DNA from: Pirellulaceae bacterium
Lineage (GTDB): Bacteria; Planctomycetota; Planctomycetia; Pirellulales; Pirellulaceae
Direction of reading: 5' to 3'
Length of the DNA: 15,068 nucleotides
Assembly: GCA_020846515.1 (NCBI GenBank)
Contig: JADLDX010000916.1
Location: 1 to 15,068 of the forward strand
The notes beneath the pieces are model-generated. The model was not told where the DNA came from. It made no database searches and saw only the letters and a list, made by a program, of their open reading frames with translations. Within the stretch, counting starts at the first letter, position 1; each line of letters starts with the position of its first letter. Below, in pieces: positions 7,769-9,885 of this stretch. The translations under genes and the position numbers were made by a program.

Positions 7769-7881
7769 AAAAGGGGGCACGGCAAAAAAGGGGTCAGGTC
7801 TATTTTCCCCCTAGCTTTCCTTACTCAGGCAGCCGGCGCAAGGAAAATAGACCTGACCCCTTTTTTGTGACCCCTTTTTAG
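7765..7881. repeat. Nested palindromic (REP-like) element containing both flanking stop codons
   Basis: The inner arms 7783-7808 and 7842-7867 are a perfect 26-bp inverted repeat (core GGGGTCAGGTCTATTTTCC) around a 33-base loop. Outer arms CTAAAAAAGGGGGCAC (7765-7780) and, on the minus strand, CTAAAAAGGGGTCAC (7881-7867) form an imperfect second pair. The TAA stops of the VWA gene (7766-7768) and of the radical SAM gene (minus, 7880-7878) both lie in the outer arms. The arrangement fits a mobile REP/MITE-like repeat or a specialised bidirectional terminator. Copy number elsewhere cannot be judged here. Confidence 0.85.
7783..7867. terminator. Probable bidirectional terminator between convergent genes
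   Basis: The 26-bp stem has an A6 tract at the left base and a T6 tract at the right base, so on either strand the transcript forms a GC-containing hairpin (GGGGTCAGGTC/GACCTGACCCC) ending in U residues. It sits between convergent stops 109 bases apart. The 33-base loop is longer than in a standard intrinsic terminator, so efficiency is uncertain. Confidence 0.5.
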
Positions 7882-9389
7882 TCAAGTTTCGGCAAAGGTA
7901 CTTTGCCATCGCGATACAGAACGTTGTATGCACAGAAGGGAATGATGTGACCGCTGGGCAGTACGTGATGGGTGCAGCATTTCATGACGCGGCGGACATC
8001 AAAGTTGTACATGTCCAAAAATGATGTCACGGTAATGCGCAACAAGTCCCGCGCGCTGGCTTGGCCCTCCAACGCCTGGGCCAGTAGACCAAGTACGACA
8101 CTGGTCGGAGTAGCCTCGCTGGTCTCGGTTGATACTGTGGAAAGCACGGGTAAGCTGGACGCGGCCGGCGGGGCAGGGCAGCAGGTCGAGCTCAGCAGTT
8201 CGCTGGTGATCGGCGTGCAGCAACCCGACTCACCGCACGCCAAACGCGATAGCAATTGGGCAACCAATGTTTGACTGCCCGCTCGGGTGAAGCTGATGCC
8301 GTTGGCCAGCAAGTCGCGATTGGTCTGGGCGTCGACCACTTGCGACAGTGGCCACAGGCGATCAGCATGACGCGCGGCTAGCGAAATCCAATGGCAATTT
8401 GGATGCGCGCATGGCAGCGGCATAAAGTCCTCGGGCGTAAACTCGCTCCCCGGCGCAGCGCACAGGCTGTCGATCACATCCGGGAAAGTAATGCGCTGCT
8501 CAAGCTCTTCGGGCAACACATGCCGACCACTGTATGTGGCTGGTTGAAAACTCAGTCCAGTAATAAACGGCCGCGTGCGCGCGAACTCCAGCAATCGCGC
8601 TGGCGCGGAGGGATTCACGCCGCCTTGTAAGGTGGCCACCAAGGTCACGTTCAAGCCCGCCTGCTCGAGTCTCTCCAGGGCTTGCAGCTTCTTCTCGAGC
8701 AAGCCTGCCTGTCCGCGCAGTCGCGTGAGCACTTCATCGTCTAAATCATCTAACTGAAAATAGACTTCGACACGCTCGCGGCGCGCGGCCAGCACGTCGA
8801 CCAGCCCTTGATCGTTGGCCAGGCGTATGCCATTGGTGTTGACCATCACATAATCGATTGGCTGGGAGAGGGCATAGTCGAGTATCTCGACAAACTCCGG
8901 ATGAATCGTCGGTTCACCGCCCGATAACTGGGCCACCTCGGCGCGACCTTCGGCAGCGACCAAACGGTCAATCGCGTTCTTTACTTCAGCGAACGATTTG
9001 TGCTTCTGCCCCGGGGCACTGGCGGCGTAGCACATGGGGCAAGTCAAATTGCAACTGTCGGTAATCTCGATGACACCGATGCAGGTGTGCTGCTCATGCT
9101 CTTCACACAGACCGCAATCGAACGGACAGCCTTTATCACTTTGGACAAAGGTCTGCTTGGGCAGTTTGGCTGGCAAACTGGTGGCAGTCAGATCGTATCG
9201 TGAGACATCGCTGCAAATAAAATCCTCACGCTCACCATGCTCGGGGCAACGTTTGCGAAAATAGACGCGACCAGCCCGCGAGACGATTTTGGCTGGTACC
9301 AAAGCGCGACACTCGGGACAGAGACTTTGGGTCAGTCCCAGGAAGGTGTAATCGCGATGCCTGGTGGCCAGGTTCAGTGGTGTATTCAT
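7878..9389 (-). CDS. Radical SAM enzyme, tetraether lipid synthase (Tes)/MJ0619-like
   Basis: A 503-residue cytoplasmic iron-sulfur protein; residue numbers here count from one codon upstream (the TTG at 9392-9390). An N-terminal rubredoxin- or zinc-ribbon-like site has CPEC (25-28) and CPEHG (49-53). The signature KGCPFDCGLCEEHEQHTC (87-104) supplies auxiliary-cluster cysteines. The radical SAM motif is C114-x3-C118-x2-C121 (CNLTCPMC), and SGGEP (157-161) binds SAM. Late cysteines are PLPCAHPNC (326-333) and MKCCTHHVLPSG...IPFC (470-487). This layout matches, from memory, the archaeal MJ0619/Tes group, which was first linked to methanopterin methylation and later shown to join lipid chains. 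Substrate here is unknown: lipid-chain coupling and C1-cofactor methylation are the main options. I preferred ATG 9389 because AAGGCGAG stands 7 bases before it. The gene follows a small membrane protein gene by 25 bases. A Cys/Ser/Thr/Pro-rich insertion (about 386-430) is unusual. Confidence 0.85.
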   Translation of the reverse strand: MNTPLNLATRHRDYTFLGLTQSLCPECRALVPAKIVSRAGRVYFRKRCPEHGEREDFICSDVSRYDLTATSLPAKLPKQTFVQSDKGCPFDCGLCEEHEQHTCIGVIEITDSCNLTCPMCYAASAPGQKHKSFAEVKNAIDRLVAAEGRAEVAQLSGGEPTIHPEFVEILDYALSQPIDYVMVNTNGIRLANDQGLVDVLAARRERVEVYFQLDDLDDEVLTRLRGQAGLLEKKLQALERLEQAGLNVTLVATLQGGVNPSAPARLLEFARTRPFITGLSFQPATYSGRHVLPEELEQRITFPDVIDSLCAAPGSEFTPEDFMPLPCAHPNCHWISLAARHADRLWPLSQVVDAQTNRDLLANGISFTRAGSQTLVAQLLSRLACGESGCCTPITSELLSSTCCPAPPAASSLPVLSTVSTETSEATPTSVVLGLLAQALEGQASARDLLRITVTSFLDMYNFDVRRVMKCCTHHVLPSGHIIPFCAYNVLYRDGKVPLPKLD

Positions 9390-9396
9390 CAAGCAT

Positions 9397-9404
9397 CTCG
9401 CCTT
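9397..9404 (-). promoter_or_regulatory. Shine-Dalgarno sequence of the radical SAM gene
   Basis: On the minus strand AAGGCGAG ends 7 bases before the ATG at 9389. It decides between this ATG and the TTG codon directly upstream of it. It is the clearest ribosome-binding site in the window and contrasts with the plus-strand genes, most of which lack one. Confidence 0.6.
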
Positions 9405-9414
9405 AGAAATAAAA

Positions 9415-9885
9415 TTACGACTTGGCCCAGTGCACGGACTGACGCAACATCAGCAAAAACATCCCGATCGTTCCAAAGACGCACACCAGTAGCCATACCA
9501 GGGCGTTGGGCGACGACATATTGGACAAACGGAATATCGCTCGAAAGCAGCCCACCGCGACCCCAATCGCACTCAACTGCAGGACCAGGCACACAAAAGT
9601 AGATGTGACCAAAAGGAAGTTGGCTGGTAAAGGTGGCAAACCAGCGCGGGCGCGCGCCGAATAGACCAGGCACACACGCAAAATACCCGCCAGGAGCGGG
9701 AACATCAGCAGCAAGAGCAGATTATGAATCACAACCGCAGCCAACATCAAGCACAAGATACTGGCCGCCGCTATGCCCCAAAAGCTGGCATCGGGAACGG
9801 GCAGCGTATCGCGCAGGCGGGCTCGCTGCATCTCCGTCAATTCGGCGATCGGCTGCTCGGAAGGTGGTTGGTATGGATTGGTCAT
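9415..9885 (-). CDS. Small four-helix membrane protein with NPYQPP N-terminus
   Basis: A 156-residue protein that I cannot assign to a named family. It begins MTNPYQPPSEQP; an NPY.pP tag at the extreme N-terminus is, from memory, common on small planctomycete membrane proteins. A charged segment follows (TEMQRARLRDTL, about 17-28), then hydrophobic segments at about 35-54, 56-75, 89-118 and 127-147, and a short polar tail. No catalytic motif or conserved Cys pair is visible, and no cleavable signal peptide. The ATG at 9885 gives the tag in place, with no clear Shine-Dalgarno. The radical SAM gene begins 25 bases after its stop on the same strand, so the two are probably co-transcribed. A membrane-anchoring or partner role for the enzyme is conceivable but only inferred from position. 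Confidence 0.75.
   Translation of the reverse strand: MTNPYQPPSEQPIAELTEMQRARLRDTLPVPDASFWGIAAASILCLMLAAVVIHNLLLLLMFPLLAGILRVCLVYSARARAGLPPLPANFLLVTSTFVCLVLQLSAIGVAVGCFRAIFRLSNMSSPNALVWLLVCVFGTIGMFLLMLRQSVHWAKS

Follow-up and report, generated by a model that had tools for sequence, protein, structure and literature searches.

A Tes-like radical SAM gene beside a small cysteine-bearing membrane-protein gene in a Pirellulaceae bacterium: likely parts of an undescribed membrane-lipid system

The radical S-adenosylmethionine (SAM) enzyme Tes (GDGT-MAS; MJ0619, PDB 7TOL/7TOM) couples the ends of lipid chains through a C-C bond, and the available text of one study places the Tes gene of Methanosarcina acetivorans beside lipid genes (PMC8941075). 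The bacterial membrane-spanning lipid synthase Mss is described in print as linking bacterial acyl chains. Tes homologues of Planctomycetota and other bacteria have already been published, their function untested as far as the available text of the two reports goes (PMC8941075, PMC11868695), and such homologues have been read as possible makers of branched glycerol dialkyl glycerol tetraethers (brGDGTs), lipids that serve as palaeoclimate proxies. Here we analyze a Tes-like radical SAM gene and the small membrane-protein gene upstream of it, on a 15,068-nucleotide stretch of Pirellulaceae DNA (contig JADLDX010000916.1, assembly GCA_020846515.1; hereafter the window). Because this radical SAM gene adjoins one for a membrane protein with a conserved cysteine, and such genes adjoin genes resembling Lgt, the prolipoprotein diacylglyceryl transferase, in several phyla, we conclude that the three proteins would probably make up a system, not described before, for the attachment and remodeling of membrane lipids. 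In the literature searched, we found no description of such an enzyme in the company of an Lgt-like gene and a cysteine protein; the cassette offers a concrete lipid system open to genetic testing.

The gene pair is as follows:
7878..9392, minus strand: Tes-like radical SAM gene, 504 amino acids from a TTG at 9392, with an in-frame alternative ATG at 9389
9415..9885, minus strand: small hydrophobic membrane-protein gene, 156 amino acids, 25 nucleotides upstream of the radical SAM ATG

The larger open reading frame (ORF) passes the Pfam cut-offs for Radical_SAM (83.3 bits) and Zn_ribbon_HMPTM (68.8 bits). It is no chance frame, since 3914 of 7996 scored candidates are homologous to it at E <= 1e-3 and its top non-self match is 84% identical; named close matches come from Aureliella, Pirellulaceae, Pirellulales and Planctomycetales. 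An original prediction, made from the sequence alone, had correctly identified this ORF, the 25-base gap between the neighbor's stop and the ATG at 9389, and the motifs CPEC...CPEHG, KGCPFDCGLCEEH, CNLTCPMC, SGGEP and MKCCTHH...IPFC, all of which are present.

The radical SAM gene of many relatives is flanked by one for an Lgt-like membrane protein with a GRxGC motif and often RHPTQLYE. Among the 241 genomes of the window's family that we searched, 101 carry the radical SAM gene (E <= 1e-40) and 91 the Lgt-like paralogue (E <= 1e-30), such that 88 hold both, 13 only the former, 3 only the latter and 137 neither (p = 3e-47, ignoring kinship). Presence of the two agrees in 126 of 139 genomes of the 13 genera that vary, genus bounds being taken from genome listing order. 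All radical SAM matches were counted alike, although seven of the 13 genomes with that gene only (G219, G317, G328, G330, G332, G333 and G335) carry no closer type than one of 35-39% identity and a number of the others are fragments. The pair is adjacent on the same strand, within 1.5 kb, in 65 of the 88 genomes, is separated by 4.75 kb to 2.5 Mb of a single contig in 4, and is split over different contigs in 19. The window genome shows such a split, its partner gene being located as follows:
G000:C643:1350-2111: Lgt-like gene of the window genome, on another contig with its own flanking genes

This split is no assembly break, since another gene follows the radical SAM gene and the Lgt-like gene has its own flanks on C643. 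Like Lgt (PF01790), the encoded protein matches the Pfam LGT model (102.1 bits, cut-off 24.9) and conserves the GR, P...E and R columns; unlike Lgt, it falls below the NCBIfam lgt cut-off (TIGR00544; 51.5 of 118.9 bits) and is an extra paralogue besides the genome's one further LGT gene, on C82. The lipid context foreseen for the pair is supported by a partner that lay outside the DNA seen in making that prediction. We also scanned named genomes and retained, of 567 confirmed stretches, the 80 best; the query was led by an Lgt-paired sequence, which favors paired clades. At 48 of these 80 loci a same-strand Lgt-like gene lies no more than 700 bases away, and at 8 it lies at 718-3482 bases; 7 of 7 Lgt-like proteins submitted from such loci pass the Pfam LGT cut-off. 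Paired hosts include Mucilaginibacter, Flavobacterium, Paenibacillus, Brevibacillus, Aeribacillus, Akkermansiaceae, Vicinamibacteria, a melainabacterium and an elusimicrobium; Pedobacter is among the named records where the enzyme is accompanied by a lipid transferase and a cysteine-bearing membrane protein. On a tree of the radical SAM proteins, an adjacent Lgt-like gene is a clustered trait, yet one that needs about 28 changes, suggesting that the partner was often lost or relocated.

Two stretches of the small protein recur in its counterparts:
9547..9549, minus strand: codon of Cys113 (in VAVGC), the sole invariant column among 17 aligned cassette small proteins
9862..9879, minus strand: N-terminal NPYQPP, whose N and P recur in 12 and 15 of the 17 rows, respectively

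The alignment comprises 16 hand-picked rows and a protein encoded beside the Lgt-like gene on C643 (P0241), which opens with a zinc-ribbon-like CxxC...CWLC and NPYSAP and closes with LFLMCAQMLGR; among the loci inspected that have an unlinked Lgt-like gene, this C643-type arrangement is found at 4 of 6 (L111, L114, L116 and L119, not L112 or L113). A small ORF with at least two hydrophobic stretches lies directly upstream of the radical SAM gene at 18 of 29 family loci (L039-L067), whereas the 156-residue protein itself gave no match in a Pfam profile search and no sequence match in the other 240 family genomes. The proposed pairing with a membrane protein finds support in position and in one cysteine, and none in the sequence as a whole. 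As to the four helices foretold, the protein is hydrophobic, and a weak single-sequence model (pLDDT, a predicted local distance score, of 71; helices 33-81, 88-121 and 126-155) is compatible with, but no proof of, about four membrane passes. Counting unique proteins, evidently spurious ORFs included, a cysteine is present in the whole set of Lgt-adjacent small proteins (79/79) and in 87 of 101 controls, which are further small membrane ORFs from these loci and are longer (mean 182 vs 139 amino acids). It lies within the last 16 residues in 59/79 vs 27/101, and after a hydrophobic stretch in 53/79 vs 40/101. Lys plus Arg are heavier before than after the cysteine-bearing stretch in 59 of the 79 and lighter in 13, so that the cysteine would face outward in most of these proteins. 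By hydrophobicity, the stretch that holds Cys113 comes late in a polytopic protein, unlike the N-terminal signal peptide and lipobox of a canonical lipoprotein; no signal-peptide predictor was run.

The metal sites of the radical SAM enzyme can be placed by comparison with Tes:
9237..9320, minus strand: rubredoxin-type site C25-x2-C28...C49-x2-H52 (PF23545), invariant in an alignment of 42
9096..9128, minus strand: N-terminal auxiliary Fe-S site C89, C93, C96 and H99, from alignments
9030..9053, minus strand: radical SAM CxxxCxxC (C114, C118, C121), from alignments
8394..8396, minus strand: C333, presumed first cysteine of a C-terminal Fe-S site, aligning with C338 of MJ0619
7932..7979, minus strand: C472...C487, presumed remaining cysteines of that site, from alignments

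Its predicted fold resembles Tes over the whole length, and the rubredoxin-type, N-terminal and radical SAM sites and three C-terminal cysteines are common to both, in support of the Tes/MJ0619-like architecture first proposed. The rubredoxin-type site corresponds to C9, C12, C33 and H36 of MJ0619, the N-terminal auxiliary ligands of Tes are named in the accessible part of PMC9433317, and C333, C472 and C487 are presumed ligands, such that, judged by sequence, residues of all four Tes metallocofactor sites are kept. Among 50 Pirellulaceae-type rows (46 distinct sequences), C338, C455 and C470 in Tes numbering are kept in 46, 45 and 46, respectively. The window enzyme also has a low-confidence, clade-specific cysteine-rich segment at residues ~380-425 (CGESGCC; CCGPSGCC in relatives), a possible additional metal site, in which CC occurs in 27 of 29 parsed rows (21 of the 50 were unparsed). 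In a Verrucomicrobia/Phycisphaerae clade (L121-L143), mostly Lgt-paired, Glu or Asp stands at the Tes N-terminal cluster His83 in 25 of 25 rows.

Unlike Tes, to which it is 27-32% identical, the window enzyme has an Lgt-like partner and sits on a separate branch, with Thr in place of Met439 and His in place of Tyr459 (48 and 47 of the 50 Pirellulaceae-type rows, respectively). The accessible part of PMC9433317 calls both residues completely conserved across 1000 archaeal homologues and reports that M439A remained active. Against the NCBIfam Tes model NF045702 (cut-off 450 bits), the window enzyme scores 270.4 and MJ0619 744.4. In a quick, unrooted tree of 172 rows, sampled outward from the window protein and with long-branch warnings (e.g., L038 and L101_16064), 12 Tes and two planctomycete rows share one side of a branch with an approximate likelihood-ratio support (SH-aLRT) of 100, and the window enzyme is among the 158 rows outside it. 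Membership in the Tes branch, as originally supposed, thus finds no support. The two planctomycete rows are L035 (G055), which carries a Tes-type MHFMDGYN motif, and the long-branched L038 (G001); as producers of bacterial tetraethers, these two are more promising candidates than the window enzyme. Since most sampled homologues fall outside the Tes branch, many of them with a lipid transferase and a cysteine protein, caution is needed before counting each as a tetraether maker. The top NCBIfam score of the window enzyme is to TrsS (NF045646), with which it has a common domain order; at 319.7 bits, that score is below the cut-off of 490. Unlike the window lineage, ten related loci (L149, L150, L151, L153, L155, L158, L171, L172, L190 and L192) have a class I methyltransferase gene nearby and no Lgt-like gene; their TrsS identity is not established, three scoring 319-321 bits as partial sequences, and their hosts are Dehalococcoidia and other Chloroflexota, Thaumarchaeota, a xanthomonad and Pelagicoccus. 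By its published description, Mss also counts among the closest known systems. Three distant planctomycetes have two different Tes-like genes side by side and no Lgt-like gene (L018/L096, L022/L099 and L032/L101).

What we observe directly for the cassette is linkage, co-occurrence, a predicted fold and conserved residues. We propose, with a probability of about 0.45, that the two window genes are parts of a cassette whose third, Lgt-like member lies on another contig, and that the products jointly lipidate the membrane protein and remodel chains by radical chemistry. The Lgt-like enzyme would load the Cys113 thiol with a diacylglyceryl group taken from a phospholipid, and the radical SAM enzyme would take a hydrogen from an acyl chain of that or a neighboring lipid and form a new bond, which in the Pirellulaceae type, with its three presumed C-terminal cluster cysteines, may join chain ends through C-C coupling, as Tes does. 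A doubtful extension holds that this is a new type of bacterial membrane-lipid system, in which, across many phyla, a dedicated Lgt paralogue lipidates an outward cysteine of a tiny polytopic protein and a Tes-fold enzyme rewires the inert chains of the lipid; in Pirellulaceae it would do so through C-C coupling and yield a protein-anchored, possibly membrane-spanning lipid.

Several points weigh against the proposed cassette. The chemistry of Lgt is located at the outer face of the membrane, whereas the radical SAM enzyme should be cytosolic. The Lgt-like proteins may not be diacylglyceryl transferases, the four tested scoring 48.4-68.6 bits against the 118.9 of the NCBIfam cut-off; part of the 19 split pairs may be assembly breaks; and at the named loci the Lgt-like gene was not found at 14 of 80, some on short contigs, and is replaced by a methyltransferase at 10. 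The hand-chosen alignment may favor matching cysteines, and the cysteine motif is no canonical lipobox, its -1 residue often being I, V or T; with a small residue required there, the count (27/79 vs 24/101) barely exceeds the control. Small proteins beside radical SAM genes without an adjacent Lgt-like gene hold a cysteine as well (27/27), and in the charge test the cysteine chosen automatically for the window protein was Cys135, not Cys113. Finally, C455 is replaced by Ser and C470 by Glu or Asp in 24 of 25 Bacteroidota rows (Ktedonosporobacter included) and 6 of 6 Bacillota rows; these are mostly Lgt-paired, so Tes-type cluster-bound coupling is not family-wide.

That substitution bears equally on a rather unlikely alternative, in which the enzyme would make free membrane-spanning phospholipids of diabolic-acid or brGDGT type, the Lgt-like and small proteins only presenting or exchanging head groups. 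The Tes fold and metal sites argue for it, and available passages of two papers propose such products, untested, for bacterial Tes homologues (PMC8941075, PMC11868695); however, the enzyme lies outside the Tes branch without Met439 and Tyr459, other Lgt-paired lineages lack the presumed C-terminal cluster cysteines, and the cysteine common to the small proteins is left unexplained. That cysteine, in a small, fast-evolving partner, would suit a peptide maturase acting on the small protein, with the Lgt-like enzyme adding a lipid to give a lipidated peptide, for which DybA, a lipoprotein that is also a ribosomally synthesized and post-translationally modified peptide (RiPP), offers a precedent (PMC12636315); we consider this unlikely. 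Further membrane genes close by could mean that the Lgt-like gene is a bystander in a general envelope-maintenance island, but its co-occurrence with the radical SAM gene persists when the two are not adjacent, and it recurs at 37 of the 80 named loci, taken as sequence clusters, against 10 for the next, a methyltransferase, and at most 7 for all others, which makes this quite improbable.

Least probable is methylation of a pterin of the tetrahydromethanopterin (H4MPT) pathway, as first claimed for MJ0619 and entertained in the original prediction. Automatic annotation gives radical SAM homologues names like 7,8-dihydro-6-hydroxymethylpterin dimethyltransferase, and the window genome has the H4MPT cyclohydrolase MCH. 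However, MCH is present in 218 of the 241 family genomes and the radical SAM gene in only 101; the latter occurs in 8 of 20 listed MCH-lacking genomes (23 in total), mostly incomplete ones; and MCH is found in 0 of 25 distant genomes bearing the radical SAM gene, where an Lgt-like gene lies within 700 bases at 24 loci and at 2446 bases at L183. The MJ0619 structure, according to the accessible part of PMC9433317, also speaks against a methylation role.

The surrounding window genes, from which nothing was learned about the function of the pair, encode an aminotransferase, HisB, a MoxR-type AAA protein, DUF58, BatA/VWA and YacP proteins and a prepilin-peptidase N-terminal domain, along with a weak photolyase match and a protein near the CorC/PaeA models but below their cut-offs. 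In several Pirellulaceae, a further family of membrane proteins of 200-240 amino acids with an RWQxYxGExR-type start is encoded near the cassette (L076, L079, L080, L085, L086, L088 and L111). One element follows the radical SAM gene directly:
7783..7867, no strand: 26-bp perfect inverted repeat, arms 7783-7808 and 7842-7867

Its 19-bp core has 28 copies in the genome, against 0 for the reversed pattern as control. The repeat occupies the spot where many relatives hold the Lgt-like gene, and this dispersed element may mark the break that shifted that gene elsewhere.
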